DNA from: a virus
Length of the DNA stretch: 41,347 nt
Virus record (IMG/VR): IMGVR_UViG_3300020203_000035
Coordinates: 1-41,347 of that record
Reading direction: 5' to 3' (one strand)
Part shown: piece by piece, positions 2,669 to 41,347 of the stretch
Numbering within the stretch: the stretch's first letter is position 1
Layout of the letters: the number at the start of each line of letters is the position of its first letter
The notes under the pieces: model-generated
Told to the model about the DNA's origin: nothing
Database searches by the model: none
What the model saw: the letters and a program-made list of their open reading frames with translations, nothing else
Program-made: the position numbers and the translations under genes

Positions 2669-2806
2669 AAGGTCTTTTCTCTGAAGGGACAGGGTAGCGC
2701 TCTCATGTTGAGAGGTCGTGATATATCCACCCTTCTTCTTTCCCCTCTCACAAACCATTTTCGTAACGCCACGAATATGGTCTAAGAGAGAGGGCCAACT
2801 GTTATT

Positions 2807-3121: not shown

Positions 3122-3130
3122 TTCATTCTC

Positions 3131-4252: not shown

Positions 4253-4256
4253 AGGG

Positions 4257-4472
4257 TTAATTTTTTGATTTAATTTTTTCTACCACGTTGAGCCTCAAAC
4301 ATTCGGCAAGAAGGAAATCAACTTCAACAATCTCTGCTTCTCGTCTCGCTACAAATTCATCTCTTTGATTTATGATGAAAGCTCTCTGAGACTTCAAAAA
4401 TTCTACCTGATATTTCGTGACAACAGGAATCACCACCTCTATCTCGTTTTCGTTGATTTTTTTTACCTCCAT
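4257..4472 (-). CDS. Small coiled-coil protein (71 aa)
   Basis: MEVKKINENEIEVVIPVVTKYQVEF...: a short beta-rich start and then a long charged helix (SQRAFIINQRDEFVARREAEIVEVDFLLAECLRL). It lies between the tail-fibre region and the small membrane genes. It could be a structural or chaperone-like accessory protein. No family recognised. Confidence 0.55.
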   Translation of the reverse strand: MEVKKINENEIEVVIPVVTKYQVEFLKSQRAFIINQRDEFVARREAEIVEVDFLLAECLRLNVVEKIKSKN

Positions 4473-4482
4473 ACTTATAGGG

Positions 4483-4638
4483 TTATTTTTTGACAGTTAC
4501 TATTTGCGATTGAACCTGTAAGGTATATCCATGCTTCTCACATATAGCGTTGATTTCTTTTGCGAACGCCTCGTGCTTCTCCTTCTCGATGCTGGCTAGT
4601 AACGCCTGTGCCTTTTCTAATTCTGTCTTCTTGTCCAT
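4483..4638 (-). CDS. Small helical protein (51 aa)
   Basis: A 51-residue product (MDKKTELEKAQALLASIEKE...), strongly helical in the first half with a short beta-like end (YTLQVQSQIVTV). The start is in the exact context ATAACCCTATGG used by neighbours, and the gene fills the space between tail fibre and coiled-coil gene, so it is likely real. Function unknown. Confidence 0.55.
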   Translation of the reverse strand: MDKKTELEKAQALLASIEKEKHEAFAKEINAICEKHGYTLQVQSQIVTVKK

Positions 4639-4648
4639 AGGGTTATTG

Positions 4649-6274
4649 TTATGCTATTAAGCCGTGAGCTCTACATCTTGCTAGTAAATCGTTTAGCTGT
4701 GTTATCGCCGAAGCTGCGTCCGTAGCGTCAATGACGGCCGCCCCTTGTGCCCCTATGACCTTATTTGCGCCCACTCTAACTTCTGGCGTTGTGATACTTG
4801 TGGTGAAGGCAGGTGCCTCCAAAAAAGCAAAAGTCTTTCGTGCTGCTCCAGTGGTAATCGTTCCGTAGTAAGCATCTGTCAAGAATTCTACTGCTCCTGC
4901 TTCTGGCGTGGTGTTCAATACTCCTGATGTGAATTTCAGTGGTGCGGTATTGGCCGTTGCTGTTCCTGCTGGTAAGTGTAATCTCGCTGTTGGTATTGTT
5001 TGAGCTAGTCCTACATTGACAGAAGCGTTGCCGATAATTACCTGATTACTTGCAGTCGTATAAGCTCCATTCCCAAGTGCCATAGAGTTTGAAGCACTTG
5101 TTAGTTGAGAAGCGTGATAGCCAGCACTATATCCTAAAAAAGTATTACTATTTCCAGTATCAATACTTCCACCAGCATAATATCCCTCTGCAGCGTTTTG
5201 GCTACCTGTGGTATTAGCGTAGAGAGCAAACGCACCTTGTGCAGAGTTGTAGCTACCTGTGGTATTAGAGCCGAGAACAAACGCACCTTGGGCAGAGTTT
5301 TGGCCACCGGTGGTGTTGGCGGTGAGGGCATTTAATCCTTGTGCCGAGCTGTAGCTACCAGTGGTGTTGGAGGTGAGGGCACGATATCCCTGTGCAGAGT
5401 TGTAGCTACCAGTGGTGTTGGAGTAGAGAGCAAACGCACCTTGGGCAGAGTTTTGACTACCTGTGGTGTTGGAGTTAAGAACAAACGCTCCTTGTGCCGA
5501 GCTGTAGTCACCTGTTGTGCTGAATTGGAGGGCATTTAATCCTTGGGCAGAGTTGTAGCTACCAGTGGTGTTGGAGGTGAGGGCACGATATCCTTGTGCA
5601 GAGTTGGCAATACCTGTGGTATTAGCGTAGAGAGCAAACGCCCCTTGGGCAGAGTTTTGGCCACCGGTGGTATTAGAGTAGGCAGCAAACGCCCCTTGGG
5701 CAGAGTTGTAATCACCTGTGGTATTAGCGTTGAGGGTATACGCCCCTTGGGCAGAGTTTTGACTACCTGTGGTGTTGGCTATAAGAGCGTACACTCCTTG
5801 GGCAGAGTTTTGGCTACCTGTGGTGTTGGCTAAAAGAGCGTACACTCCCTGTGCAGAGTTGGAGTAACCTGTGGTATTAGCGTTGAGGGCATTAAATCCT
5901 TGTGCCGAGTTATAGGAACCTTTATAAGTAGCCCCAACTTCACCAATAGAGCTTTGTCCACCTCCACCAATAAAAGAATTAAATCCATCGGAGTTAGCAC
6001 CTTTATATGAACTTATTAAAAGACTAGTGCCGTTTGTGTTTATTTTTATGTTTCCTGCAACGTCTATTTTCTCAGTTGGAGTCGCTATACCAATACCCAA
6101 CCGATTGTTAGTATCGTCCCAGAAAAGGTTAGCATTGTCTTGAGCAAGCACGCCTGATACACCTGCAAACAAGATTGAGCCTGCTGTAGCTAAACCAACG
6201 GTATCACCAATAGCGACACCACCTCCTTGGAAGTATTCTGCTCTGCCAGAGGATGGGTTAAATTTCCATGCCAT
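4649..6274 (-). CDS. Tail fibre/spike protein with 17-residue repeats
   Basis: A 541-residue virion protein. The N-terminus (MAWKFNPSSGRAEYFQGGGV) is followed by a GIGIATPTEKIDVAG segment common in fibres and spikes. Residues about 120-357 are 14 tandem 17-residue units of the form SxNSAQGxxALxANTTG, resembling the beta-roll repeats of YadA-head/hep-Hag adhesins. Then comes a GNSNTFLGYSAG...IIGNASVNVG segment and a C-terminus (VIGAQGAAVIDATDAASAITQL) seen in many phage fibres. It should bind the host surface; copy number change of the repeats would alter fibre length. Confidence 0.85.
   Translation of the reverse strand: MAWKFNPSSGRAEYFQGGGVAIGDTVGLATAGSILFAGVSGVLAQDNANLFWDDTNNRLGIGIATPTEKIDVAGNIKINTNGTSLLISSYKGANSDGFNSFIGGGGQSSIGEVGATYKGSYNSAQGFNALNANTTGYSNSAQGVYALLANTTGSQNSAQGVYALIANTTGSQNSAQGAYTLNANTTGDYNSAQGAFAAYSNTTGGQNSAQGAFALYANTTGIANSAQGYRALTSNTTGSYNSAQGLNALQFSTTGDYSSAQGAFVLNSNTTGSQNSAQGAFALYSNTTGSYNSAQGYRALTSNTTGSYSSAQGLNALTANTTGGQNSAQGAFVLGSNTTGSYNSAQGAFALYANTTGSQNAAEGYYAGGSIDTGNSNTFLGYSAGYHASQLTSASNSMALGNGAYTTASNQVIIGNASVNVGLAQTIPTARLHLPAGTATANTAPLKFTSGVLNTTPEAGAVEFLTDAYYGTITTGAARKTFAFLEAPAFTTSITTPEVRVGANKVIGAQGAAVIDATDAASAITQLNDLLARCRAHGLIA
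5204..5917 (-). repeat. Fourteen tandem 51-bp coding repeats in the tail fibre gene
   Basis: The unit is 51 bp (17 codons) with conserved NSAQG and NTTG codons and variable pairs between them. Some units are nearly identical (for example the YRALTSNTTG and AFALYANTTG types recur), which points to slippage or unequal recombination. The repeats also create false open frames on the opposite strand. Confidence 0.85.
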
Positions 6275-6275
6275 A

Positions 6276-6590
6276 TTATGATTTCGCTATGGTAGTAATA
6301 GTCCCCTTACCGCTATCCGTGTAGGTTACCAGTACGGTCGCCACTGTTGTTCCGGCTGCACCGCCTGTCTTATACACCCAGGTATCAGTAGTAGCGGCTA
6401 CAGTGAGAGCCAAATGGTCATGCACTGGTATTTGGAACCCCTGAAGAGCTTTGAGCGTCTCTTCGGTAGCAGGGCTGACGAAGTTCCCAGCGTGATCAAT
6501 AACCTGCGTCACCTTCGTCTTTAGGGTATCGTCAAACGACATGTTGTCGATGTATTGACTGGTGTATTTTGTTTTGCTTATTGCTGTCAT
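6276..6590 (-). CDS. Small virion-associated protein
   Basis: A 104-residue protein: N-terminal part with ATEETLKALQGFQIPVHDHLAL and a beta-strand-rich C-terminus (DTWVYKTGGAAGTTVATVLVTYTDSGKGTITTIA). Proteins of this composition are found beside tail-fibre genes in many phages, and the C-terminal half looks like a small beta-sandwich. It lies 1 base upstream of the tail fibre gene. Probably a decoration, adaptor or fibre-associated protein; no firm family. Confidence 0.6.
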   Translation of the reverse strand: MTAISKTKYTSQYIDNMSFDDTLKTKVTQVIDHAGNFVSPATEETLKALQGFQIPVHDHLALTVAATTDTWVYKTGGAAGTTVATVLVTYTDSGKGTITTIAKS

Positions 6591-6778
6591 AGCACGATAT
6601 ATTTATCAGGACCGTCGACGATATTTATTGTTGGACAATAGATACAGGCTATCTCTATTTCACTGTATTTTCTCCACGTGTGTTCCTTACACATGGTCAC
6701 CTGAGTGCTTAAGATATTCTTCTCACTCATGTATGACACTCCTTCCTCTATAGGTGGCTCACTCGGGATACTGGTCAT
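6587..6778 (-). CDS. Small Cys/His protein (63 aa)
   Basis: MTSIPSEPPIEEGVSYMSEK... then CKEHTWRKYSEIEIACIYCPTINIVD: a Cys-x2-His and Cys-x2-Cys set that fits a small zinc ribbon. It overlaps the 3' end of the internal virion protein gene by 20 bases and the next gene by four. Start context TACCCTATG. Function unknown. Confidence 0.6.
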   Translation of the reverse strand: MTSIPSEPPIEEGVSYMSEKNILSTQVTMCKEHTWRKYSEIEIACIYCPTINIVDGPDKYIVL

Positions 6779-9700
6779 AGGGTAGATTGTTTAGATATTT
6801 CTTTCTTTCTTGGATATCGTCATAGATAGCCTTATCCTCTGGTGAATACTGCTCTCGTTTCACTTCGGCCAGAACACGAGAGAAGACGGTCTTTTTTTTA
6901 TGCGACGTAATCTGTGATTTAATTTGTGTAAGGATTTCTTCGTTATTCGTCTGGAGATATTCAGTCAAAAGACTTCTCAGATTATCACTGAATATTCTGC
7001 TTTCCCGTTTTGGCCATTCTTTGTAAAAAGCATTTTGGACTCCGCCCCCAACATACGGCACCTTAGAAGCGAAGAATTTTTCAATAGGGAAGGACGCTCG
7101 CATAGGATCTCCTTCATTTCCGCTATATCTATTTTCTTTCATTATACCATCTGTTTGTGAGGCAGCACTAACTAGACCTCCAATATCAGAAACAGTTGGG
7201 CCCAGGGCATTTCCAGCGATGATACTTGCCCTGTTAATGAGACCTCTATTTTCAGATTTCTCACCGAAAGCGTTGTTCCCGACATACAGAGCGCTCTGGA
7301 ATAATTGGCCAGGGAGCATACCCGTCATACCAATAGCCGCTTCCAGTTTTTTGATGTCATCGTCTTCTTCAGAAATAGTTTTAGTTGGCAGATCGAGGAG
7401 ATCACGGATTTCTTCGTCTCTTAAGGTGATGACATCTCTTGACTTCTTGGCTGCTAAATAAAGACCAGGCATCACTGTCAGCATGCGGACAAGCGGTTTC
7501 ACATTCCCTTGTCTCGCCTCATTGATAATATGGTCACGCCAAAAGGTTGTCTGCATATATCCGAAACTCTTGAACTGGGTGAAGAGCTTGCCCATAGGTG
7601 TACGGCTCCAGAGAGGGAGAGTGAGAGCGTTCATTCTAAACTGAGTATCTGTCACAAATTTGTATGACGCCTTGGCAACATCAGCCCCTCGCATAGTCCC
7701 TCGTTTAAGCGCTTCTTCTACATTTAGTCCCAGAAACTTCGCTGCTCGTAATGCCTCAGAATCAAGCGGGTTTGCCTTAAGCGCGCGCATGACATCTCCA
7801 GACATTCTCCTTCCGACATCAGCCGCAATGGTACGGTTAAACTCCTCTGTCTTTTTGAAAATATAGAGGGCACCCTTCATTAACTTCCCAGAGACGAGTC
7901 CTGTTTCTTGCTCCATCAACATGTCTTCCAAGGCTCCGGCCATTCGAGCAAGGTCTTTCATTTTTGCCCTATCTTTTGCGTTTGTGGCGTATCTACCTAT
8001 TGATTTCAAAGTATTGAAAAAACCGCCAACACTGATAGTGTTAGCTGCCTGGGTAAGGTTTTGAACACCAGCAAGCGAAAGCTTTGTGAATTGGTTCCAC
8101 TTCAGGGCCATTCGGATAAAAGTGTTTGGAACTTCTCCTTGTCCAAGCCGCTCATCGATAATACGGGCGATTTGTTCTTGGCTAACTTTTCCAGAGGCAA
8201 TCATGTCGCTAAAAAGACTGAGCACTTTCTCGTTTTGATAGCCAAAGAGATCACTCTTCATTTTCATACGAGAAACATCTCCGACGTATCTATCCATGAT
8301 TTCTCCTGCATCACGAATAAACCGCGGGTCATCACCGGCCCGTGCTCTTTCCAATGTTCCAACCCTTCCCCTTATCAAACGACGTTCAAGTTCTGCGGCA
8401 TAGACACCTTCTGCATCAGCGCGAGAGAGTCCCTGCTTCATGAGACCGAGTATTTCATTCTCCTTAAAGGTGGTAGTGCTCTTTACCGCATCCGTGTAAT
8501 AGCGGCTTATATAGGTGTCTGAATCCAGGGTATCGTCCCATATTCTTTCTACTCCTTTAGCATCTGTTGTTCGCCATTTTTCTTTCACTCCGAGCTTCTT
8601 CACATAGGCATGGAATTGCTGCATCATCTCATAGGCCTTCTGTTCTTTCCCTGGCCTCAGCTGAGAGCGGAGAGCTGGATTCATTTTTGCCTCTGTGATG
8701 AACTCACGACGAGCCAATGGTATGCCTTCAAAAGCCTCTTTCATTGACATTTTCCAGAAGGCCTGAAAGCTGTTTTCAGTCATGTAAGATTCATCGAGTC
8801 TTCTGGCAAATTCTTTCCCACTCTTACCACCTCGATTCAACAATCCTCTTCCAGACTCAATGTACGGCCGAACATACTTTCCATAGAGAGAGCTGGTACT
8901 CGCCTGAGCTCTCTTTTCAGCAGCCGATACAGAGAGGTTTTGCCGTATCATCTCCTCACGATCAATGGCTCCTGTCTTCGGGTTCATTATGCCCTTCTCT
9001 TTGCGCATCGCCCTCTGATAGTCAGAAAGCTTCACCTTCAACTTTGAAGCGCCTTCGGAAAGATTTATTTCCATAAGCTCCCTCGCTGTCATTTTTCCAC
9101 CGAGAGCGCTGGCAATACGAGCGATGGACTCATCAGCTCTATCTGTTGCAAGATTTCTTCCTCTCCCTAGACCGTGAAGACCGAGGGTCACGAGGGGAGC
9201 AGTAGCCGCCATAGCAGCCCTTTCTTTCCATGGCGTGTCTTTTTCGGCGAGTCCCTGCATAAGGACCTGGTCCCCAATAAGGTTCTGGACGAATGGACGC
9301 ATAGTGCCTGTAGGGGTGAGGAGCTTGGGAGCATACTTCGCCACGAGGCCAGTAACCTTTGAGCTTTCAAGCAGGGGGCGCAGAGCTGCCCCACCAGCGT
9401 AAAATGCCCCAGCCTGACCTCCTACCCCAAATCCCTTGTACATCCCCTCCTCAACGCTATTCTGTGGCTTGAAGTTTGTTTTTGGAAGCTCCCAGGGAGT
9501 GACCTTTAATGGTATGTTCGCCATCGGCCGTATCCCCTCATCATAGACACCAGAGGCTATCGTTTGGGCTGTTCTGATTGGATGCTGGTATGTTTGCTTG
9601 ATTATCTTACCAATCGCCCCTGGAGTCCCTGTGATAGTCTTCATTGCTAAGTTGCCGAAGCTATTCAGCTTATCGGCCTCTTCTTGCATCGGGGCGGCCT

Positions 9701-20214: not shown

Positions 20215-21023
20215 AGCGTTACATGTTGCTGACAATATGATTCCCAGGTCATATCTTCTGCGGGATTAAAACTCAGTTTGTCAAAAATAGCATTGAGCTC
20301 TTCTTGGGTATCAAACGGATGAGCAATATTGAGCTCTGCGTGGAAGCCCTCCATCGGAGCAATACACGGTATGCCAGCATTGGTGGCATCGAGAATCCCC
20401 ATTGAACCCTCATCTTTCCCGAAATACAGACAGTAGTCAGAGAGGTCGAGTATTTGCTTATAATGCTTTTCCTCGAATTCTCTGCTGTATTGGCCCTGGA
20501 AATCCAGTCCAGCAAACGGGGAAATGATTGGCTCCCAGTCTTTCCCCATAACAAGAAAGACGAATTTAGTCCTGTCGATATGATTGAGAAGCGCTGCGAA
20601 CATCTGTTCTCGTTTGCATCCATTCGGATAGACGTTTGTGAGGATACTGACTATTCGTGGACGTCTTTGCCACCCATCATGGGCGGGGAGAACGGTGGCA
20701 AGATTCTTGATTTTTTTCTTTCTCAAAGCCGCCTCTGTCTGATGAGAGAAACAAATGCCAAGATCAGCTGTTTCCATCCCTTTTTTTAGGCTCGCAAGCT
20801 TCGCTTCATCAGTGATATGTGTCACCTGCAGGGTGTTCTTTCCAGGCATATGCACATAGGACTGATAGTTGATGTGATGATTTATCCAGCCCTTCTTTGG
20901 TTTCGTGCTGACAAGAACCGTATGACCCAGTTCCTTCAACCCACGCTCCATACGATAGGCATATTTCGAGAGAATACCGTCGTATCCCAGGGCTTCTTCG
21001 TAATTGACGAGGTTTATTTTCAT
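20196..21023 (-). CDS. Glycosyltransferase, GT4-like (GT-B fold)
   Basis: 275 residues. The N-terminal half begins MKINLVNYEEALGYDGILSKYAYRMERGLKELGH, typical of a donor/acceptor Rossmann domain; the C-terminal half has DEGSMGILDATNAGIPCIAP (204-223), the EX7E-like nucleotide-sugar site of group 1 glycosyltransferases. It should transfer a sugar made by the neighbouring genes. Overlaps the gene upstream by four bases and gmd by 19. Confidence 0.8.
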   Translation of the reverse strand: MKINLVNYEEALGYDGILSKYAYRMERGLKELGHTVLVSTKPKKGWINHHINYQSYVHMPGKNTLQVTHITDEAKLASLKKGMETADLGICFSHQTEAALRKKKIKNLATVLPAHDGWQRRPRIVSILTNVYPNGCKREQMFAALLNHIDRTKFVFLVMGKDWEPIISPFAGLDFQGQYSREFEEKHYKQILDLSDYCLYFGKDEGSMGILDATNAGIPCIAPMEGFHAELNIAHPFDTQEELNAIFDKLSFNPAEDMTWESYCQQHVTLWEKLK

Positions 21024-22705
21024 AGCTTATGATTAATCATCTTAAAATACGGGTGGTTCCAGGCCCCACAAGGGGTGATTTGATGGATTTCTTCCAGTGG
21101 GAAGGCAATGGGGAAGCTCATTTGGTCTCTCACCCCGTAACGACAGTAGTCAGCCCACCACTTTTCATTCAATTCATTGATACGCGGCGTGTGTTTTCGG
21201 ACAATAACCCCACATTCAGAAAGGCCTGAGTGATTTTCTACCCCTTGTTTGGCATAAGCCATAGTCTGTTCAAAGAGAATCTCTGGTTTTTCTTTCCCCA
21301 GGGCGATACAGGCGTCTCGTTCTTGATACACGTCGTCCCTACCAGCGTGCTTGAAGACAGCGATGTCTTTACCCGTTTTTGTCAGAAACTCGTCAATGAG
21401 CGTCTGCGGGGGGACCATTAATTCGATATTGGCGTCGAGGTAGATGGAATACTCTGTGTCCATATACTTGTGAGGCATGATTTTCTGGATTCTGGAGTTT
21501 CTGCGGTCATCGGTAAACAGGGTACAAGGAGGCTGTACGTTCCATGTCTTACTCTGATGGTTGCTGTAAGCGATTAAATGAGCCCCAGTGGCCTTCTGAC
21601 CCTCATTGAGGGCATCGATACCACCCACGAGCGCAGTGTACACTGTGACCTCTTTTTTCATGTATAAATCGAATACCTTTTCGTACAGAGGGAGCTGTTT
21701 ATCGATAGTATATTTCTCCAAAACTTCTGCCTTGGCTGCTTTCCCGATTTCTTTGCGCTTTTCTTCGTTTTCGATGAGCCAAGAGAGGTATTTTACCCAC
21801 TGTCCGGTACCGAGAGCGAGATAGCCTGTCTTATAGTTCTTCACGCTCTCCTTGTAGGGCGTGACAGAAGACAAAACCATCGGGGTTTCCAGCATGGAGT
21901 GTTCCAGCCACTTGATATTTGACTTGCAGCGGTTAAAGTAGGAATCCATGAGTGGGGCGACCGCAATATCCAGGTCCATATCAGCCAAAAACTGTGGATA
22001 TTCTGCGTATCCCATAGTGGGGCGGTGGTGGAACTCTCGTTCACCCCGTGATGAATCTTTATCGACAAAACCCGCCAGGTGTATTTCTACCTGCGGGTAT
22101 TTCTTCAGAATCTCATCGAACGCATCGTTCACGATATGGGTATCAGCCATATGAGACCCTGAACCCATCCAACCAATTCTAATCTTTCCGTCCGTCCTTA
22201 TCGGTCGTTTCACCTCCCAGATGGCAGGATCAATAGCGTTCGGGATAACGGTTATCTTCTTGCCCGTATGGGCGAGTGATTCTTTCAGCAGTTCTGTCGA
22301 TACAACGAGATGGTCAGCAATCTCAATCATGTATCGAATCATGGGCTCTTTCTCTTTCAACTTGTCGTACAAGGGATGGGCCTTATTTTGCGTAAAGGGC
22401 TCATCATCAATATCCAAAATAATTTTAGAATCAGTGAAGTGCTTCGCCGTGTCGATATAGACATGCATCCCGCTGTTATCCACGAGCTTCCAAAACCAAA
22501 CATCTCCCTTTTTCCCAAGCTGAGCGGCATTGTGCATGGCAATCTCTGGCTCCCCACCAAGAATAATCCTCCCGTACGTTTTCCATCCCAGTTTGCTGAG
22601 AGGATTGATAACCCGATACCAACCAATGGCTCCAAAACTTTTCGAGCCGTCTGGTCTCAGCCAGTCGGTATAGAATCCGGCCACCCTCGATTTCCCCCTA
22701 GCCAT
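21020..22705 (-). CDS. Two-domain glycosyltransferase: GT4-like plus DUF616-like
   Basis: 561 residues. Residues 1-345 are a GT-B group 1 transferase (ILDIDDEP, VIPNAIDPAIWE, RIGWMGSGSHMAD, MLETPMVLSS). Residues about 353-550 match the DUF616 (TOD1/MUCI70) glycosyltransferase pattern: TVYTALVGGIDAL, MPHKYMDTEYSIYLDANIEL, IAVFKHAGRDDVYQE, GLSECGVIVRKH and WW...RDQMSFPIA. One polypeptide may thus add two sugars in turn. It is coupled to its neighbours by short overlaps. Confidence 0.82.
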   Translation of the reverse strand: MARGKSRVAGFYTDWLRPDGSKSFGAIGWYRVINPLSKLGWKTYGRIILGGEPEIAMHNAAQLGKKGDVWFWKLVDNSGMHVYIDTAKHFTDSKIILDIDDEPFTQNKAHPLYDKLKEKEPMIRYMIEIADHLVVSTELLKESLAHTGKKITVIPNAIDPAIWEVKRPIRTDGKIRIGWMGSGSHMADTHIVNDAFDEILKKYPQVEIHLAGFVDKDSSRGEREFHHRPTMGYAEYPQFLADMDLDIAVAPLMDSYFNRCKSNIKWLEHSMLETPMVLSSVTPYKESVKNYKTGYLALGTGQWVKYLSWLIENEEKRKEIGKAAKAEVLEKYTIDKQLPLYEKVFDLYMKKEVTVYTALVGGIDALNEGQKATGAHLIAYSNHQSKTWNVQPPCTLFTDDRRNSRIQKIMPHKYMDTEYSIYLDANIELMVPPQTLIDEFLTKTGKDIAVFKHAGRDDVYQERDACIALGKEKPEILFEQTMAYAKQGVENHSGLSECGVIVRKHTPRINELNEKWWADYCRYGVRDQMSFPIAFPLEEIHQITPCGAWNHPYFKMINHKL

Positions 22706-25173: not shown

Positions 25174-25464
25174 TTAAAGTTTGTTCAAATCATTGCGAAT
25201 AAACCGTGCTTTTGTCTCCACTTCGTCCATTATCTGAAAAATACGGGTAATCCCTTCGTGTAAACCGTGATTATAGCGCAATTCGTCCATGTTTTTGCAA
25301 TCGTAGGCTTTTTTCAGCTCCTTATCCTGGGCATGGAGAGGGGAAGCAAAGTATTTTTGAAATAATTGCCCCTCTACCATGCTTTTTACATCAAGAAGTT
25401 CTGAGAGTTCTCTCTCGAGGCCTTCTCTTCGTAGTTTACTAGATTCTAGGCTGTTGTGAGCCAT
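25174..25464 (-). CDS. Small helical protein between portal and scaffold
   Basis: 96 residues, mostly helical and charged (LRREGLERELSELLDVKSMVEG..., GITRIFQIMDEVETKARFIRNDL). It overlaps the 3' end of the portal gene by 26 bases. A head-assembly or portal-associated role is suggested only by position. Confidence 0.6.
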   Translation of the reverse strand: MAHNSLESSKLRREGLERELSELLDVKSMVEGQLFQKYFASPLHAQDKELKKAYDCKNMDELRYNHGLHEGITRIFQIMDEVETKARFIRNDLNKL

Positions 25465-27211
25465 AAGTTGCTTGACTTATACCGTCTGCTGAGGGTGTTT
25501 GATTCATTTCTGGGAGAGCGTTTCCGTCTACGGGTCCAGCTGCTCCTTGCTGTCCGGTCGGCTGGATGGGCTGTCCGGTATTGGGGTCAATAGTCTGCTC
25601 CGGCTGCTGTATGTCAGGGATAAGCTCTTTGACGTTAGAAATGCCTCTCATCCTGGCAATAGCCTGGGCAAAAGTACGCTGTTCTTGTGGCGCCATGCCT
25701 GGAGAGACCAAATTGTAGAGGTCAAGCATTTGTTTTGCCAAAATATCCTTGTTGGCAGCCTCGACCGTGTCTCCGGTGACCTTGGCATCAAATTGAAGAT
25801 TATCACGGACACTTAAGAGGAGCTCAAAAATGGCCTGTCTTTCCACTTCTGGGAAGATTTTCATAATCTCCTGGTCTACCGACTGAAGATTTGCCAGTTC
25901 CATCTTCAGGGTCATCCATCCTACCCGTGCCATAGCGGATTTCAGGCGCTTTCTTACGAGGTCAAAGCGATTAGAAACGTTTGACTGGGCTAATTGGTCC
26001 TGACCAAAGGTGCGGGAGCTTGGTGAACCCTGAATGAGGTCCGTTGCTCCAGAAGCGCGCTTATGTTCCTGGCTAATAAGGTCAAGCATCTGGAACCCAG
26101 ACTGCTTTAAGTCTGATTGCTCAATCCACTCTGCTTCGTCCTTTGTGGCACGAATGGTCCCGCCTGGACGGGCAAGCAAATCCTGTGGATTGACGCGCGA
26201 ACCTGGATCAATACGCCACATCTTGTTCACGACAATCTTCAGGTTCAGCATGATCAGGTTAAAGAGGTCGTAGTACATCTCTTGTAGCCCCAGGGTGTTC
26301 TGACCGATGCCCTTACCGTTACAACGGTTTGGGATAACCTCGTTCTCATAGACAAACTTCACATAAGGAATGACTCCGTATGGGTTTGGTTCGTCACGCA
26401 AGACAATGCCCTCACCGCTATCAGCCACCGTGATGACTGATTCGTTTGTCCAGCGCTCGTAGATGTCAATGACCTGGAATTCATCTTCCATGGATTTTAC
26501 GTCATCGAGATCTGTTTGGTCCATAACGTCAGACCCGTAGGCAGAGTGCTTCGATTTCTTCGTGGCCTTGATGGTCAGACTATTATCGTTATACGAAGGA
26601 TTCTTTTTAATCTCTGCGATAGTCATGCTAATGCGTTCAATAACGCTCACCTGATCTTCGGTGTCTGAAATGAGTGGGTTCTGGTAAATGTCCAAAATGT
26701 TTGGCACAGAATAGACAGGACGGTCGATAATGATTTTCCCTTGCTCAAAACGCCAGGCACACTTCAAAAGCGAGGTCCCGAGACCACAGCCCTGTGTCAC
26801 CCAACCCAAGGAGATCTCATAAAACCGAGGATTCTTTTCGATACGGTACGAGAGGATCTTATCCAAAATAAAGGATATTTCTTTGTCCTCGTCTCCGACG
26901 AGCATCACTTCCATTTCTGGTTCCCCAGAATAGATAAAAGGAACGACAAAAGAAACCTCTGTGCGCATCTTTGGAATAAACTCAGGGGATTCCCACGGAT
27001 AGACATTCTCTGAAAGCTCGCCGTTCATGGCTTTCCAAATCTCGAGAATATCTTTTCTCCAGGCCGTGGTAGAAGATTCATAGACCTTCTTCTCTCGCAT
27101 GACTAAAGCGGCACTTTTCTTTTCTTTTTCTTTCACCGTTTCTTTCTCTTCTCTGGCTTCAACTCTTTCTGGCTCTTGCTCTGGTACGATAGGCAGTCCC
27201 GTAGGTTGCAT
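25439..27211 (-). CDS. Portal protein
   Basis: 590 residues. After a charged N-terminal tail (about 1-40) come TTAWRKDILEIWKAMNG, TEVSFVVPFIYSGEPEMEV, the GCGLGTSLLKCAWRFEQGKI strands, NILDIYQNPLISDTED and the long helical clip/stem region (QEMYYDLFNLIMLNLKIVVNK, then LIQGSPSSRTFGQ), with a Gln/Pro-rich C-terminus. It forms the dodecameric ring through which DNA is packaged. Placed directly after terminase, with its start inside the terminase 3' end (53-base overlap). Confidence 0.82.
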   Translation of the reverse strand: MQPTGLPIVPEQEPERVEAREEKETVKEKEKKSAALVMREKKVYESSTTAWRKDILEIWKAMNGELSENVYPWESPEFIPKMRTEVSFVVPFIYSGEPEMEVMLVGDEDKEISFILDKILSYRIEKNPRFYEISLGWVTQGCGLGTSLLKCAWRFEQGKIIIDRPVYSVPNILDIYQNPLISDTEDQVSVIERISMTIAEIKKNPSYNDNSLTIKATKKSKHSAYGSDVMDQTDLDDVKSMEDEFQVIDIYERWTNESVITVADSGEGIVLRDEPNPYGVIPYVKFVYENEVIPNRCNGKGIGQNTLGLQEMYYDLFNLIMLNLKIVVNKMWRIDPGSRVNPQDLLARPGGTIRATKDEAEWIEQSDLKQSGFQMLDLISQEHKRASGATDLIQGSPSSRTFGQDQLAQSNVSNRFDLVRKRLKSAMARVGWMTLKMELANLQSVDQEIMKIFPEVERQAIFELLLSVRDNLQFDAKVTGDTVEAANKDILAKQMLDLYNLVSPGMAPQEQRTFAQAIARMRGISNVKELIPDIQQPEQTIDPNTGQPIQPTGQQGAAGPVDGNALPEMNQTPSADGISQATYGSQQPRI

Positions 27212-28601
27212 AGTATGGGTCTAAATTAGAGGGATTATACGGCACGGCAGCCATGGTAGTTATATATGCGAGAGCATCTATCAGGTCATCGTGCTGTCCC
27301 CGAGGAAACGTTGTTAATTCATCAATGAGATCGTCCTGTCCTTTTTTGAAAAACATAGCCGATGCTTCGTAACGAGGAAGAAGCGCTTCTATTCTTAGGG
27401 CTTTTGATTTCCCTAAGTCTTTTAATTCTTCGACCGTGAAGAACTCATTCCTCCGTCGCATCTCTTCGTCGAGTGTCGGCTTCAAAGTATACAAATAGCT
27501 GCGCTGCTCTATGCCGACCTTCAGGGGTTGGTAGAATTTTTTGAGATCAAACAACTTTTCGATGAGAGATTTCTCATCTCCTTTGAATCGCTCTGCGTTT
27601 AGAATATACCATCTGTTGTCAGAGTCAACTCCGGCAATAACAATACCAGTAAAGTCCGCCGTCTTTTCCATACTGTAGGCACGGTCCACAGCCATGTAGA
27701 CGTTTAACTGTTTGCCTTCTTGCTCTTTTGGATCAAAGAACTTTATCTTTTCGAATTTGAATTTTCGGAACTCATCAGAGACTGGGTCGTTCATGTATTC
27801 CTGGTAGTACAAGAATCCCTGACCCTCCCGCATGTAGTTCGCCTTTATTTCTTCTAACTGTTTCAGATTCAAATGTTCTGGCCACAAGGCCTGACCGTCC
27901 ATAACCGCTCTCCAGATTCTCTTCGTCCATGTCGGATAACGCTTTTCGTCAATCAAATTATTGAGCAAGGAATCATAGTGGAGAATGGTACCAATAACGA
28001 CCACTTTCCCTTCTGGAGCGAGGGAAGGAATGAGCGCCCCGCTAAACCACCTGGAAAGCTTTTCCCTGCGGTCCTTCGACTCTACCATCTCATCGTTCTC
28101 CAAATCATCACAGATCACCATGTCTGGACGGAAGTTACGGTATTTCAGCCCTCTGACCTTCATATTGGCCCCTAAGGCCTTTACCATGACATCCCCAACC
28201 ACAATCTCCTCCTCAGACCATTTATCCGTTACCAGGTTCCCATAGAAGGCAATCAGTCTGTCATTCCCCTCAAACTCAGCTTTTAAGGTTTCAAGGAACA
28301 ACGTGGACTGGGAATAGGTATCAGAAATAAGGAGAGCGAACTTCGTTTGTTTATTGACTATCAACCAGGAAAGGTAGATAAGATCGAAAATGGTGCTCTT
28401 GGCATGCCCTCTTGGAGCAGCAATGGCAATTCTTGTTCCCCCTGTCTTTAGAATGGAATAGAGGTCTTTATGAAACTTCGGGGTAGCTAAGGTCAGATGA
28501 TGGCCATAGAAGAACTGAGCAAAGAGTTCTATGTCTTTTTGAAATATTTTTTTAAGTACAGCCACTTTCTCTTTTGAAGTGGATTCTTCTTTAACAACCA
28601 T
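27159..28601 (-). CDS. terL: Terminase large subunit
   Basis: 480 residues. ATPase: Walker A APRGHAKST (62-70), Walker B MVICDDLEND (161-170), coupling motif VIGTILHYD (202-210). Nuclease: AVDRAY with Asp306, Glu365 in VGIEQRS, and HDDLIDALAY (Asp438, Asp439, Asp442). It pumps and cuts DNA during packaging. Start at TTTGTAATATGG, preceded by a possible 17-codon open frame that ends at this start. The 3' end overlaps the portal gene. Confidence 0.93.
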   Translation of the reverse strand: MVVKEESTSKEKVAVLKKIFQKDIELFAQFFYGHHLTLATPKFHKDLYSILKTGGTRIAIAAPRGHAKSTIFDLIYLSWLIVNKQTKFALLISDTYSQSTLFLETLKAEFEGNDRLIAFYGNLVTDKWSEEEIVVGDVMVKALGANMKVRGLKYRNFRPDMVICDDLENDEMVESKDRREKLSRWFSGALIPSLAPEGKVVVIGTILHYDSLLNNLIDEKRYPTWTKRIWRAVMDGQALWPEHLNLKQLEEIKANYMREGQGFLYYQEYMNDPVSDEFRKFKFEKIKFFDPKEQEGKQLNVYMAVDRAYSMEKTADFTGIVIAGVDSDNRWYILNAERFKGDEKSLIEKLFDLKKFYQPLKVGIEQRSYLYTLKPTLDEEMRRRNEFFTVEELKDLGKSKALRIEALLPRYEASAMFFKKGQDDLIDELTTFPRGQHDDLIDALAYITTMAAVPYNPSNLDPYYATYGTAYRTRARARKS

Positions 28602-30030: not shown

Positions 30031-30192
30031 ATGAAAAATGAAACAAGACTCGGTCGCATGTCACAATCAGAGCTCCTCGCACTGATTTTTCTTATTGAAC
30101 GAGCCAAGCCTGAGCTAAATAAGCGGATCAGCATTACCTTAGAGAAAAGGAAAAACGACTACTACGTTATCCGTAAGCCATTAACAGAATAA
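30031..30192 (+). CDS. Small hypothetical protein (53 aa)
   Basis: MKNETRLGRMSQSELLALIF... with a helical middle (SELLALIFLIERAKPELNKR) and a beta-like, basic end (ISITLEKRKNDYYVIRK). Start in context ATCAAATATG. It lies 5 bases before the next gene. Function unknown. Confidence 0.5.
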   Translation: MKNETRLGRMSQSELLALIFLIERAKPELNKRISITLEKRKNDYYVIRKPLTE

Positions 30193-30197
30193 ATCGT

Positions 30198-30698
30198 ATG
30201 CCAAACTACAAAGTAGGAGACGTCCTCAAGCCTATCAATGGAAGTGTGTGTGGTACATACCACAGTAAACAAAATGCCGTTGCCATAAGCATTACCAACA
30301 TCGATTCAGAGGGTGATTATGGCTATAAAATTCTCACCAAAGAAGGAGCTGTATTAAGTGGCTGTTCCAGTTGCTTCAAAGACGAAAACCTCACTCCTGT
30401 ATTTAAAACTCTCAACACTCTCCAGGTTGGTGATTATGTGAAAGACGAAGACGGAGATTACAAAAGAGTTCTCGCTGTCCTCAATCGAGGTGACGAAGAC
30501 GGGCTCTGTGTGTATGTGATGTCAACTTATGGCGAGAAGGATTCAGAAAATACGAGTATATCTGATGGCGTGTGGAACGTCCTTGAGCTTAAAAAATATG
30601 GCTACTCAATCGAAGACCCCACACCCGAAACAGTAGAAGAACTCACAATGGAAGAGGTATGTAAAGCTCTCGGCCGTGTGGTGAAGATTAAAAAATAA
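30198..30698 (+). CDS. Phage SH3-like repeat protein, copy 1 of tandem pair
   Basis: 166 residues. Two related beta-rich modules begin YKVGDVLKPINGS and LQVGDYVKDEDGDYKRVLAVL; the C-terminal TMEEVCKALGRVVKIKK is a motif seen in many phage proteins of unknown role. The next gene is a paralogue whose first 38 bases are almost identical. Likely a small cytoplasmic protein; a binding role is possible. Confidence 0.65.
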   Translation: MPNYKVGDVLKPINGSVCGTYHSKQNAVAISITNIDSEGDYGYKILTKEGAVLSGCSSCFKDENLTPVFKTLNTLQVGDYVKDEDGDYKRVLAVLNRGDEDGLCVYVMSTYGEKDSENTSISDGVWNVLELKKYGYSIEDPTPETVEELTMEEVCKALGRVVKIKK

Positions 30699-30716
30699 CT
30701 AAAAATCACTAATAAT

Positions 30717-31292
30717 ATGCCAAACTACAAAGTAGGAGACGTCCTCAAGCCTATCGATGGAAGCGTGTGTGTTACATACGAAGAACAAAATGCCGTTGCC
30801 ATCAGAATCACCAATATCAATTCGGATGGTAATTATTTCTACGTCATTCTCAGCAAGGAAGGAACTGTATTAGGTGGTTGTTCCCATTGTTTCAAAGACA
30901 ACAACCTCACTCTCGTAGCCAAAACTCTCAACACTCTCCAGATCGGTGATTATATCCAAGACGAAGGAGGAGATTACAGAAGGGTCCTCGCTGTACTTAG
31001 CAGAAGCGACGAAGACGGGCTCTGCGTGTATGTGCTGTCAGGTGATGGCAAAAAGTATTCGGACAATATAGCGAAAGCATATAGTACATGGACTGTTTAT
31101 GACTTAAAAAGACTTGGCTACTCAATCGAAGAACCCACACCTGAAATAGCAGAAAATACCGAAGCACAAATCGCAGCAGAGAAGCGCATCCTCCTGGAAG
31201 AAATCATCGCCACAATCAGAAAATCAGAACTCGATGGTGAAGATGTAGGGGCAATCCTCTCGATGATTCAAGATATGAAAAAACGAGTATAA
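30717..31292 (+). CDS. Phage SH3-like repeat protein, copy 2 of tandem pair
   Basis: 191 residues. Residues 1-145 are clearly related to the preceding gene (same start, same LQxGDY...RVLAVL module), but the C-terminus is replaced by a charged helix (AEKRILLEEIIATIRKSELDGEDVGAILSMIQDM). This points to tandem duplication and later divergence with a different tail. Function unknown. Confidence 0.65.
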   Translation: MPNYKVGDVLKPIDGSVCVTYEEQNAVAIRITNINSDGNYFYVILSKEGTVLGGCSHCFKDNNLTLVAKTLNTLQIGDYIQDEGGDYRRVLAVLSRSDEDGLCVYVLSGDGKKYSDNIAKAYSTWTVYDLKRLGYSIEEPTPEIAENTEAQIAAEKRILLEEIIATIRKSELDGEDVGAILSMIQDMKKRV

Positions 31293-31316
31293 ACGAAGAT
31301 AACCCTAAATAACCCT

Positions 31317-31505
31317 ATGGACTACAACACATATATCTGGGAGTCAGATCTCGACACCCTGATAGAGGAAAGAACAGAATTCAAGCACAACAGCACTGAG
31401 TTTGAATACGCTGTCGATATCCTCGTCGTAAAAGATTTCATCCATGAACTCTTGCAAAGGCAGGAGGCCCTGGTGAGTCAAATACGCGAATCAGAATTAA
31501 AATAA
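31317..31505 (+). CDS. Small acidic helical protein (62 aa)
   Basis: MDYNTYIWESDLDTLIEERT... Mostly helical and acidic. Start in the context AATAACCCTATGG. It lies 4 bases before the zinc-ribbon gene. No family recognised. Confidence 0.55.
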   Translation: MDYNTYIWESDLDTLIEERTEFKHNSTEFEYAVDILVVKDFIHELLQRQEALVSQIRESELK

Positions 31506-31509
31506 TCCT

Positions 31510-31941
31510 ATGAAACAAAAGTGGGAGAGATTGACAGCAGCGAATCTTAGAGACAATGCCAATGTAAAAACAAACACTCGTTCCAGGATAGTCGTAACAG
31601 GAAAAATCACAGACCGAACAAGCCATGGCAACTACTCCTCCAGGATAACAAAAGCATACAGGCTGCACCTAAGGGGTAATTTTAAATATCAATTAGAGGA
31701 AAACGCAGAAAATGAAGCAGAGGATGGAACAGCTAGAACAGAAGACCCAACCTACAAAGAAGAAAGCTACGAGTGGGACGTATACCTGAAAGAAGGGGAT
31801 TGGAAAAGAATAAACTTTCGTGGTGTACCACTCTGGATAGAAAAAACACAAGAAAGAAAATTCCAATGCTTCAAGTGTAAAAAAGCAGCAGCGCCGTACA
31901 AAAACGCAATATGTAAATCATGTAATCAGCTAGCATTTTGA
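31510..31941 (+). CDS. Hypothetical protein with C-terminal zinc ribbon
   Basis: 143 residues; a basic N-terminal part (MKQKWERLTAANLRDNANVK), a beta-rich middle (RSRIVVTGKITDRTSHGNYSSRITKAYRL; SYEWDVYLKEGDWKRINFRG) and a C-terminal ribbon FQCFKCKKAAAPYKNAICKSC with two CxxC pairs. It directly precedes the amidoligase gene (TGA and ATG two bases apart), so it may supply or recognise its substrate. Function unknown. Confidence 0.6.
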   Translation: MKQKWERLTAANLRDNANVKTNTRSRIVVTGKITDRTSHGNYSSRITKAYRLHLRGNFKYQLEENAENEAEDGTARTEDPTYKEESYEWDVYLKEGDWKRINFRGVPLWIEKTQERKFQCFKCKKAAAPYKNAICKSCNQLAF

Positions 31942-31943
31942 CT

Positions 31944-32861
31944 ATGGACAAATTTTACGACCACTTCAAATTCGGACTAGAGTTCGAGATGGAAACACCG
32001 CCAAACAGCCTAAATCTAGACAGCACTTACGGCAACATGAGAGTAGTAAGAGACGGAAGCATCAACAGAGTAGCGGGTGGACACTGCTTTGAAATCATCT
32101 GTGCAGAACCACTCACAACCAAAGACGAGGAAACAGCCTTCCTCGACACAATGAAAAGCCTTATCCCAGTCTTTCAAAGTCAATCAGGTGAAGAAGTATT
32201 TGCATATCACAACTTGTCATGTGGAACCCATTATCACTGGTCATTCAAAAACCATAAGGATGCCATGCTCTGGGTATACGACACAATAGACTTTGAAAAA
32301 TTCTTCTACACCGAATATGTAAAAGAGTTCCGAACAGAAAAATTCCTTTCTCGTATCAACACCAACTTCTGCAAAGCGCCTACCCTATCAGACGCAGCCA
32401 AAGGGGCAGAAACAAAGCCCCATGAAGTCAGAGCAAGCTTAAATAAGCTCACCATGGCTGGATTCGCACAAGAATATGCCAAAACCTCACGTTATCGCTG
32501 GCTCAACATGCAGTCCGTAGTAGAAGGAACAGGAGCTGAGATACGAATATTCCCATTCCTCCAAACACATGCTGGCGTAAACCAAGTAACAAAGTTCATG
32601 AAGCGAATACTGCTTGAATTCTATCTCAACCCAAGTACCCAAGAAAAAATAAAGCTCATGGAATTCTACAGTGCCAATATAGAAGGAAAGCCCCTAAAAT
32701 TTCATCTCTTAAATGAAATGAAAAGACTAGCGTACGAAATACTGGTAACAAAAACAGTCAACGACACATCCCTTGCAATGCTTTCAGGCGAGCTTCGTAT
32801 TCTTCTCGCTCGCTGGGTCAAAAAGCAACCAAACCTAATCAAACAAGAAAAAGCTTCCTAA
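31944..32861 (+). CDS. Amidoligase (COOH-NH2 ligase, amidoligase_2 type)
   Basis: 305 residues from MDKFYDHF. Family pattern in order: FGLEFEMET (10-18), VVRDGSI (34-40), CFEIICAEPL (48-57), CGTHYHWS (93-100), RYRWLNMQ (183-190) and AEIRIFPF (198-205). The fold is related to glutamine synthetase and joins a carboxyl and an amine using ATP. The substrate is unknown: peptide, cell-wall or protein tag are possible. The next gene is a class II glutamine amidotransferase separated by one base, so ammonia or an amine from glutamine may feed the reaction. Confidence 0.82.
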   Translation: MDKFYDHFKFGLEFEMETPPNSLNLDSTYGNMRVVRDGSINRVAGGHCFEIICAEPLTTKDEETAFLDTMKSLIPVFQSQSGEEVFAYHNLSCGTHYHWSFKNHKDAMLWVYDTIDFEKFFYTEYVKEFRTEKFLSRINTNFCKAPTLSDAAKGAETKPHEVRASLNKLTMAGFAQEYAKTSRYRWLNMQSVVEGTGAEIRIFPFLQTHAGVNQVTKFMKRILLEFYLNPSTQEKIKLMEFYSANIEGKPLKFHLLNEMKRLAYEILVTKTVNDTSLAMLSGELRILLARWVKKQPNLIKQEKAS

Positions 32862-32862
32862 T

Positions 32863-33771
32863 ATGTGCGAAATACTCGTTACCAAACATAACAACAGGGG
32901 GATTCAATTTGCAGAAGAAAAAATCCACGCTGCCCTCACTGCTAACAGCGACGGTGCAGGCTATGTCGTCTTTGAAAAAGTAAAGAACGACAAATATGAA
33001 ATTATCGAAACAAAGCTGTTCAAGCCAGTAGTGAAAGCACGGTGGACATACCAGCTCGGAGACAAAACAAATAACAAAGACACAAAAAAGCCCTACACTG
33101 CTTGGGACTTTGACCTCATAACCAAAACCATCATCCTCTCAAACGATAGTGACCAGTCAATCTTTGTCTACCCTAAATCAGTTGAAGATGCCTTCTTAGG
33201 AAGCGCAACAGAGCTAGAAATACAAGAAGCCATTGAAAAATGGCTGGATATGACAAAAATAAGTTACGACTTCTCTACAGGTACAAAAGACAAAGAAGAA
33301 GAAGAAGAAGACGACGACTCAATCGACAATATTTCTGAGAAATTTTTCTTGAAACAAGCACGCTTGAAAAAGAACCAGCTGATGATAATGCACTTCCGCC
33401 TGGCGACATCAGGACGAACACATGAATTCACCCAGCCAATCATCAATGAAACGTTCCTCACTATCCACAATGGCGTTTTCTCAGCGCTTGGAACACCACT
33501 CCAATCAGATACAGCAAAATTCAGTGAAAACCTTGAAAAGCTGTACAACATTACCAATATAAAAACGCCGAAAGAAGAAAACACACTCATAGAGACACTG
33601 CTTGATATGACAGAAGGATACTATTCTGCTTTCTTCTACTCTTTCAAGACCAAAAGTCTCTTCTACTTCAAACACGGAGCCTCATTCTACTCGTTCAATA
33701 ACAAACTCCTCTACTCTACCAGGGCTGAAAGATTCCCCCTCAGTTCAGAAGAGGCCAATAAATTCATTTAA
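32863..33771 (+). CDS. Class II glutamine amidotransferase (Ntn hydrolase)
   Basis: 302 residues. Starts MCEILVTK, so removal of Met exposes Cys2 as the nucleophile, as in GAT-II enzymes. NSDGAGYVVF (28-37), MHFRLATSGRTHEFTQPI (176-193) and IHNGVFS (201-207) are the expected glutamine-site motifs. A Glu/Asp-rich insert (about 143-153) separates the two halves. Alone it would hydrolyse glutamine or cleave amides; paired with the amidoligase it likely supplies nitrogen or reverses the modification. Confidence 0.85.
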   Translation: MCEILVTKHNNRGIQFAEEKIHAALTANSDGAGYVVFEKVKNDKYEIIETKLFKPVVKARWTYQLGDKTNNKDTKKPYTAWDFDLITKTIILSNDSDQSIFVYPKSVEDAFLGSATELEIQEAIEKWLDMTKISYDFSTGTKDKEEEEEDDDSIDNISEKFFLKQARLKKNQLMIMHFRLATSGRTHEFTQPIINETFLTIHNGVFSALGTPLQSDTAKFSENLEKLYNITNIKTPKEENTLIETLLDMTEGYYSAFFYSFKTKSLFYFKHGASFYSFNNKLLYSTRAERFPLSSEEANKFI

Positions 33772-33809
33772 TATTCAGCCATGAAAAAGAATAGAAAGGT
33801 GGTGATAAT

Positions 33810-33959
33810 ATGAAAACAACGTACGACAAAGAAACAGGGCTAAGGACGTGGGGCTTGTCAGCATGGTATGAAAAAGCAATATACCTTTTTGGCTGGTTCT
33901 ACACAATCATCATGGCAGTGTGGTTCCTCGTAGGAGTAGCAGCAACAGTAGAAGTTTAA
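33810..33959 (+). CDS. Small membrane protein (49 aa)
   Basis: MKTTYDKETGLRTWGLSAWY..., then a membrane helix (AIYLFGWFYTIIMAVWFLVGVAA). A strong Shine-Dalgarno sequence (AAAGGTGGTGAT) precedes the ATG. A ten-codon frame just upstream ends at this start. Function unknown; it may bring the amidoligase pair to the membrane, but that is a guess. Confidence 0.5.
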   Translation: MKTTYDKETGLRTWGLSAWYEKAIYLFGWFYTIIMAVWFLVGVAATVEV

Positions 33960-33976
33960 TCGTAAAATATAATCAT

Positions 33977-34192
33977 ATGTCAGTAGTAAACACCGAAGCC
34001 ATCTTGAAGCTCGTAGACGTCATGAACGAATTGAAGGACTCTATCGACCCAGCATACGGAAAGATTGCCATTGTCATGAAGAAAGGGCCAGCTGATAACG
34101 CCGAATGTGTGCGTTATTTCATTCAGAAGCGAGCCATCATGACTGTTGATGGTATCGAGCGCTGGGCATATGTAGCCCGTGAGTCTAAATAA
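33977..34192 (+). CDS. Small hypothetical protein (71 aa)
   Basis: Start taken at MSVVNTEAILKLVDVMNELK, in context AATCATATG. Helical first half, beta-rich second half (AECVRYFIQKRAIMTVDGIERWAYVAR). Its stop overlaps the next ATG (TAATG). Function unknown. Confidence 0.55.
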   Translation: MSVVNTEAILKLVDVMNELKDSIDPAYGKIAIVMKKGPADNAECVRYFIQKRAIMTVDGIERWAYVARESK

Positions 34193-34470
34193 TGCATGTA
34201 ATCAGCCTGCATGGCAGTTTACAAATATCGGATCCTGATTATGAGCTCTTGACCGATATGTTTGAACACTACCTTCAAAATACAATGTTTTCTTCTCAAT
34301 TTGTCTGCATGAGCAATGAATATGGAGATATTCTTATCACAGATGATATGATAGAAACTCTTGGAGATAAACTCCGAGAAGGTAAGCTTTCAAATGAACA
34401 AGCTCAATTAGTAACCAATATAATTGAACTCAGGCAAAACAATTATCTAAGCATTAATACAACTGAATAA
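34192..34470 (+). CDS. Hypothetical protein (92 aa), last gene of rightward operon
   Basis: MHVISLHGSLQISDPDYELLTDMF...: mixed alpha/beta, acidic, with a helical end (SNEQAQLVTNIIELRQNN). Overlaps the preceding gene by one base. The terminator at 34480 follows ten bases after its stop. Function unknown. Confidence 0.6.
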   Translation: MHVISLHGSLQISDPDYELLTDMFEHYLQNTMFSSQFVCMSNEYGDILITDDMIETLGDKLREGKLSNEQAQLVTNIIELRQNNYLSINTTE

Positions 34471-34479: not shown

Positions 34480-34506
34480 AGCGGGCCTAATAAGCCCGCT
34501 TTTTTT
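34480..34506. terminator. Strong bidirectional terminator between converging operons
   Basis: AGCGGGC (34480-34486), loop CTAATAA, GCCCGCT (34494-34500), then TTTTTT. On the other strand the stem is followed by TGTTTCTTTT, so it can stop both the rightward operon and the leftward early operon. Confidence 0.85.
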
Positions 34507-40447: not shown

Positions 40448-41238
40448 ACTCTTATTACTTTAGGCTTAGACTGCTTTTGCTGATCAATCCAGGCCTTAAT
40501 ATGGCCCAAATTCCTTTCTAGTTCGGTTGGTTTAATAGACTTCCCCTTAGAAAACCGGTCAGCATTGACTTGAGGAAGAATTTCTTTGACGATGACAGCC
40601 CACTCATCGAGGCTGTGCATTTTGAGCAGGCGGCCGCAGGAAGCACGTTCTGTGGTGTTTTTGAAAAGCAGGCCAAAAGATGGGTTAACCTCAACGAAGA
40701 ATCCAATGAACATGGAAATTTCCTTTCCTTGCAAAACGTCAGTTTTGCTAAAAAGATGTGTTTCCTTATATGTGTTTCCTTGCTTATGTGTTTCCTTAGT
40801 GTAAACCACGTTTACATGGTCGTGTAAACCACGTTTACATGGTGGCGTCTCCACGTTTACATGGTCCATGTCAACCACGTTTACATGGCTAGCCATGTCC
40901 TCCACAGGGACTTGGCTGTAATCCCACTCTGATTTATCAAGCAGAACATAGGTGTTGTTCAACCATTGTCCATTTTTGGTTCTCATCTTTTTTACTTGGA
41001 TAATTTTTCGCTTCTCTAGGTTTTCAATGCCTTTAATTATTGTCGGACTGCTCACTCTATGCTGTTCCGCCATTAGTTTGATGGATGGGAAGCTTTCTTG
41101 ATTTATGTCGGCGTGTCGGCACAAGCTGTTGTAAACGATTGTCCCCTGCCAACCACAAAGCCTTGCTTGTCCGTTTAGATATGCGTCGTCCATCAAGAAT
41201 TTCTCTTTTTTCCTTTTATCTATGATTCTTCTTTCCAT
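40444..41238 (-). CDS. Replication initiator, lambda O-like layout
   Basis: 264 residues from MERRIIDKRKKEKFLMDD (TAATATG context); an in-frame opening further upstream lies in the hairpin leader. A winged helix-turn-helix occupies about 25-100 (SFPSIKLMAEQHRVSSPTIIKGIENLEKRKIIQVKK at 49-84). The middle (115-165) is encoded by origin repeats, and a C-terminal helical domain (about 168-264) may bind the host helicase loader. This N-domain, iterons-in-gene, C-domain order is that of lambda O and similar initiators. Controlled by the leader at 26-101/140-167. Confidence 0.8.
   Translation of the reverse strand: MERRIIDKRKKEKFLMDDAYLNGQARLCGWQGTIVYNSLCRHADINQESFPSIKLMAEQHRVSSPTIIKGIENLEKRKIIQVKKMRTKNGQWLNNTYVLLDKSEWDYSQVPVEDMASHVNVVDMDHVNVETPPCKRGLHDHVNVVYTKETHKQGNTYKETHLFSKTDVLQGKEISMFIGFFVEVNPSFGLLFKNTTERASCGRLLKMHSLDEWAVIVKEILPQVNADRFSKGKSIKPTELERNLGHIKAWIDQQKQSKPKVIRV
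40756..40797. repeat. Three direct repeats (ATGTGTTTCCTT) in the origin region
   Basis: Copies at 40756-40767, 40770-40781 and 40786-40797, 14 and 16 bases apart, perfect over 12 bases. They lie next to the four iterons inside the initiator gene and are rather AT-rich, so they may be secondary initiator sites or the DNA-unwinding part of the origin. Confidence 0.7.
40806..40888. other. Probable replication origin: four iterons in the initiator gene
   Basis: Four perfect copies of CCACGTTTACATGG at 40806-40819, 40829-40842, 40851-40864 and 40875-40888, spaced 22-24 bases (about two helix turns). Each is a near-palindrome (ACCAYGT...ACRTGGT). In lambda the O protein binds four similar iterons inside gene O. 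Three copies are read as HVNV while one is read in another frame as PPCKRG, so the DNA, not the peptide, is conserved. Confidence 0.85.
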
Positions 41239-41347
41239 ATTAGTTTTTTGCCAAAAAAAATACCGAGGGCTTTCCCACAGACCGCCCCCTTGCAAGGGGC
41301 ACTTATGAGAAAACCTTCGGTATCTTCTTTGTGCAAGGGTATTTAAT
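41228..41347. repeat. Terminal overlap: right copy of 120-bp repeat
   Basis: Same as bases 1-120 except T at 41332 for C at 105. It holds the end of the initiator's leader (terminator-like hairpin) and its start codon. See the left copy for interpretation. Confidence 0.93.

Follow-up and report, generated by a model that had tools for sequence, protein, structure and literature searches.

Described phage ligase-amidotransferase pairs

Genes for a glutamine synthetase (GS)-like COOH-NH2 ligase (amidoligase) accompanied by a class II glutamine amidotransferase (GATase) are already annotated in the Methylophilales phages MEP401 and MEP402, in mycobacteriophage Marvin, and in LUZ24-like phages; a function in superinfection exclusion has been suggested. 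These annotations reduce the novelty that an earlier, sequence-only reading of the DNA studied here had implied for its own pair. What is new, judged by sequence, is a very diverged pair of an already described type. The pair lies in what we call the window, that is, the whole stretch of DNA that was analyzed (41,347 nucleotides; IMG/VR virus record IMGVR_UViG_3300020203_000035, positions 1 to 41,347).

In MEP401 and MEP402, the products of gp06 and gp07 (Amidoligase_2 and GATase, respectively) carry the same motifs as the window proteins, and the ligase gene is likewise directly upstream of the GATase gene. The GATases match at an E value of about 1e-2 by tblastn and of 1e-9 in pairwise comparison, and zinc-ribbon cysteines precede the ligase domain. 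Unlike the window, these phages, which belong to another phage family, encode a single 548-amino-acid (aa) ligase with the zinc ribbon fused to it and a GATase that lacks an insertion of roughly 110 residues. Marvin gp105 and gp106 resemble the window pair as a ligase and a GATase that lie side by side close to one end of the genome; they differ in that the ligase is only distantly related and has a fused cysteine-rich region. To our knowledge, no such phage pair has been characterized biochemically, and we know of no target for any phage ligase-GATase pair, even though such pairs are widespread. Iyer et al. reportedly predicted amidoligase clusters of phiEco32 and LUZ24-like phages in 2009; as in the window, a phage amidoligase occurs there with a class II GATase. 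The LUZ24-like amidoligase and GATase genes are listed in PMC3890496, in which the cluster of the LUZ24-like phage UFV-P2, unlike the window operon, includes an ATP-grasp gene as well as an HNH gene between the ligase and the GATase. Glutamine-dependent carboxylate amidation, as proposed here for the window pair, is carried out by the bacterial wall enzymes AsnB/LtsA and MurT-GatD, and AsnB/LtsA use a class II glutaminase as well. However, the synthetase part of these systems is asparagine synthetase-like or Mur ligase-like rather than GS-like, and GatD is a class I GATase.

Genomic context of the window pair

The window is a phage record with a 120-bp direct repeat at its ends (positions 1-120 and 41228-41347; 119/120 identical). 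Given this nearly perfect repeat, the window probably represents one whole genome unit, and the repeat suggests that the genome is complete and either terminally redundant or circular. Packaging and structural genes occupy the minus strand (TerL, 27159-28601; portal, 25439-27211), and a plus-strand operon (about 30031-34470) is flanked by the terminase genes on one side and an HNH gene on the other. Elsewhere, amid the structural genes, positions 21020-22705 encode a protein of 561 aa for which PHROG searching gave two matches of glycosyltransferase type (E = 2.6e-42 and 4.5e-8).

Within the operon, the ligase open reading frame (ORF; 31944-32861) and the GATase ORF (32863-33771) are both intact, both on the plus strand, and separated by 1 base, exactly as had been described from the sequence. 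By means of a 79%-identical terminase, we located a syntenic relative, IMGVR_UViG_3300013131_004892 (here L095), that has the pair in the same place and orientation. Its ligase and GATase are 43% and 39% identical to those of the window, with intact ORFs and the active-site residues kept. Among IMG/VR and GTDB genomes, the only relatives found were one identical copy and L095. To judge from these sequences, the window belongs to a diverged, rare branch in which the zinc ribbon is split off and the GATase is enlarged.

The plus-strand operon starts with two tandem paralogous ORFs of 166 and 191 aa (30198-31292). The DNA of these ORFs (30198-30698 and 30717-31292) is about 77-93% identical over long blocks, and they appear to be the product of a recent duplication. 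Neither gave a Pfam or PHROG family at a meaningful score, and L095 has no counterpart of them. Downstream of the pair, and on the same strand, are a 49-aa putative membrane protein (33810-33959), a small ORF whose exact start is uncertain (33959-34192), and a last small ORF of 92 aa (34192-34470). The second of these, in the same operon, has by synteny a 66-aa positional counterpart in L095 with a C-terminal motif that looks similar by eye; the third has an 89-aa positional counterpart at 15% identity, which is not significant. A bidirectional terminator-like hairpin (34480-34500) closes the operon. The ribosome-binding stretch AGAAAGGTGGTG is very similar at window positions 33795-33810 and near position 670 of L095, with different small genes after each.

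Assignment of the ligase

The ligase ORF (305 aa) extends from an ATG at 31944 to a TAA at 32859-32861, with an alternative TTG start at 31938. Its product contains all of the motifs that had been quoted for it (FGLEFE, RDGSI, CFEII, CGTHYHWS, and RYRWLNMQ). The active-site motifs of the superfamily (ExE, DxS, E, GxHxH, and ExRxF) are all kept, and residues E13, E15, D37, S39, E50, G94, H96, H98, E199, R201, and F203 are invariant in 25/25 aligned phage ligases. The other rows of this 25-ligase alignment all match PF12224 (24/24). The window ligase itself gave no Pfam match at an E value of ≤1, scoring below every Pfam model and short of the curated PF12224 cutoff, and PHROG and PDB sequence searches with it returned nothing usable. 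Profiles built from phage proteins showed a resemblance beyond chance: the ligase was the sole strong window match to a four-sequence phage amidoligase HMM (E = 5e-4) and scored an E value of 0.0046 against a 23-member phage ligase HMM, compared to 0.061 for the best of 2000 shuffles.

The L095 ligase is more family-like than its window homologue. It matches PHROG amidoligases and reaches 23.3 bits against PF12224 (Amidoligase_2), for which the curated cutoff is 22. Hhalign with the window ligase as a single sequence was weak (probability, 9.6). Adding the L095 ligase resolved the comparison, the two together aligning to 23 diverse phage amidoligases with an E value of 1.4e-9 and a probability of 96.4. 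A GS-like fold is expected of the amidoligase superfamily. The AF2 model of the window ligase is of moderate quality (pLDDT, 68.9), and its best PDB matches are the bifunctional glutathione synthetase GshF, glutamine synthetase, and gamma-glutamylcysteine synthetase (GshA); the top fold matches are nearly all GS/GCS-fold enzymes, at weak E values (best, only 2e-3). Placement in the superfamily is drawn from the L095 homologue above the PF12224 cutoff, from the profile-profile comparison and, weakly, from the fold; on this homology, the window ligase is taken to be a member of the Amidoligase_2 superfamily that falls outside the Pfam model itself. Profile searching, to which the sequence-only reading had looked for such a placement, thus succeeded by way of L095 and hhalign and failed for Pfam with the ligase alone. 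With the window and L095, the family now reaches sequences missed by standard models.

When the ligase was searched directly against phages by tblastn, the only matches were to Streptococcus Sipho_tail/tape-measure proteins (E = 2e-4); these were rejected as chance, as the matched protein is of the Sipho_tail type and lacks the ligase motifs. Scanning DNA for the motifs CGTHYHW and RYRWLNM likewise gave chance matches, among them a terminase and an NYN-like protein.

Assignment of the glutamine amidotransferase

The GATase ORF begins with an ATG at 32863 and ends at 33771 (302 aa), placing the nucleophile Cys2 immediately after the initiator Met. The motifs MCEI, HFRLATSG, and HNG are all present, and Cys2, N28, G31, H177, R179, T182, G184, H202, N203, G204, and D216 are invariant (25/25). 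The signature includes the glutamine-binding R179 (HFRxATxG), the oxyanion residues N203-G204, and D216 (SD). An HMM of four phage GATases, from which the window's own sequence was excluded, recognized the protein with an E value of 7e-12, and PHROG 14519 matched at 8e-4; against Pfam PF13522, it scored 15.8 bits, below the curated cutoff of 27. Foldseek comparison of a moderate AF2 model (pLDDT, 67.5) gave GFAT-1 as the best match (E = 5e-4; probability, 1.00), followed by GlmS and PurF. Upstream of HFRLATSG, an insertion that is partly acidic and poorly modeled makes the protein about 110 residues longer than MEP402 gp07. Sequence and model together identify the second ORF as a class II glutaminase with the Ntn-hydrolase fold. 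The two enzyme assignments of the sequence-only reading are borne out by the hhalign and GATase HMM scores and by the invariant residues.

Pairing of the two genes across phages

To gauge how often the two genes occur together, 85 phage loci were gathered by the ligase motif alone. A same-strand GATase gene was found in 83/85 loci, nearly always directly adjacent, a figure that describes the subfamily of MEP402/Marvin-type ligases with which the loci were gathered; the 2 exceptions are contig ends. In 30 nonredundant loci, the gap between the two genes was mostly -32 to +43 nucleotides (nt). These counts, with the syntenic L095, substantiate the expectation that the two genes co-occur in phages, and the pair was found in phages of both Gram types. 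Coupling is not universal, however: in the stretches checked, a ligase occurs with no GATase in Clostridioides (C. difficile) phage AR1086-1 and in a Microcoleus phage, and a Bifidobacterium phage has a GATase and no ligase nearby. A Pfam scan of 72 neighbor genes gave no clue to the target; most were ordinary genes for replication and packaging.

Two loci have a distinct composition. In Stenotrophomonas phage StenR_269, the GATase is 4.5 kb from the ligase, and positions 2199-8573 of that locus hold a cluster of gamma-glutamyl cyclotransferase (GGCT)-like, GATase, glutamine synthetase-like, ATP-grasp-like, and amidoligase genes. In phage C75C1, the GATase (3501-4397) is apparently fused to a GGCT-like domain, and an amidoligase gene lies 0.85 kb upstream; from this putative fusion, some members of the family may carry out gamma-glutamyl chemistry.

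Zinc ribbons and the membrane protein

The gene immediately upstream of the ligase (31510-31941, plus strand) encodes a separate 143-aa zinc-ribbon protein with CxxC-x11-CxxC at its C terminus, and its stop codon precedes the ligase ATG by 2 nt. In other phages, such ribbons are typically part of the ligase. Among nonredundant ligases with an N-terminal extension, 25/28 have at least two CxxC motifs in that extension (zinc ribbons), and CxxC density is 2.36 per 100 aa in the extensions versus 0.013 in the ligase domain; several phage GATases carry CxxC motifs too. The ribbon is unfused both in the window, as the upstream gene, and in L095, where a different, unrelated 76-aa zinc ribbon is encoded just after the GATase.

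Fusion elsewhere argues well for a functional link between zinc ribbon and ligase, and the window gene is plausibly a split-off part of the ligase. The sequence-only reading had proposed that this gene and the 49-aa membrane protein complete a four-gene system. For the zinc ribbon, membership is probable given its fusion to the ligase in most relatives, although no homologue of the window protein was detected in L095. The membrane protein lacks an L095 counterpart, is probably outside the system, and was dropped as a component; the four-gene set is not supported as a whole. Zinc ribbons on the great majority of such ligases, separate in this diverged branch, offer a pointer to a macromolecular target and a testable handle.

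Predicted reaction and competing explanations

Class II GATases free ammonia from glutamine, and GS-fold ligases use ATP to activate a carboxylate, which they convert to an amide. We consider it probable that the two window genes encode a glutamine-dependent amide-forming enzyme. Cys2 of the GATase would hydrolyze glutamine to ammonia; the ligase would activate a target carboxylate with ATP and attach the ammonia handed over to it, converting -COOH to -CONH2; and the zinc ribbon, ligase-fused in most other phages and encoded separately here, would probably be a split-off targeting part. This reaction, the ammonia hand-over, and the zinc-ribbon role are what we infer from gene order, conservation, catalytic residues, and fold resemblance. 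The earlier prediction of a phage-made amide bond likewise follows from the enzyme classes of both proteins, and the enzyme families make a primary amide on the target carboxylate the most likely product. Since most of these ligases have a fused zinc ribbon, the target is suggested to be a macromolecule, either protein or nucleic acid, and not a free metabolite. A bolder proposal, which we advance tentatively and hold to be somewhat unlikely, is that the pair is the catalytic core of a modification system in which exchangeable zinc-ribbon adaptors, here encoded by a separate gene, select the host or virion macromolecule whose carboxylates are amidated. If true, phages would encode a pathway for protein (or nucleic acid) amidation whose specificity parts are interchangeable.

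A different specific-target version of amide formation, also doubtful in our estimation, has the pair amidating a cell wall carboxylate (e.g., the DAP or D-Glu carboxyl of peptidoglycan precursors) and thereby altering the envelope in a way that makes competing phages or lysins less effective. Bacterial AsnB and LtsA (DAP) and MurT-GatD (Glu) are described as glutamine-dependent wall amidation systems, a passage in PMC10580990 suggests, with reference to Iyer 2009 for phiEco32, that phage pairs counter superinfection by acting on the wall, and occurrence of the pair in phages of both Gram types is consistent with this target. Yet the window operon holds nothing wall specific, the membrane protein that might have lent support is not conserved in L095, and ligase-fused zinc ribbons fit a macromolecular target better. 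Nucleic acid would be such a target, with the pair making a modified nucleotide or nucleic acid and the ribbon binding DNA or RNA, as zinc ribbons often do; most such ligases carry one, and replication genes (DnaB-type helicase and primase) lie near several pairs. We nevertheless regard this as quite improbable: phage early regions are rich in replication genes anyway, and the Pfam scan of 72 neighbors showed no obvious base modification enzymes beside the pair.

Two further explanations dispense with glutamine-dependent amidation by the window pair. The ligase could join an amino acid, amine, or peptide to its target through an isopeptide or gamma-glutamyl link, the GATase-like protein then being an Ntn hydrolase or transferase rather than an ammonia source. 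GshA and GshF are among the top fold matches of the ligase model, and some relatives link ligase, GATase, and GGCT, as in the apparent C75C1 fusion and the GS-like, ATP-grasp-like, and GGCT-like genes near the StenR_269 pair; we judge this chemistry unlikely for the window, where Pfam and PHROG searches found no GGCT or ATP-grasp gene in the operon and where the GATase retains the complete class II glutaminase signature and matches GFAT/GlmS. Decay or inactivity of the window pair could account for its divergence, in keeping with a ligase that Pfam does not detect and that is less family-like than its L095 homologue, but this is very improbable: both frames are open, all invariant residues are kept, and the pair is retained in L095 at about 40% identity.
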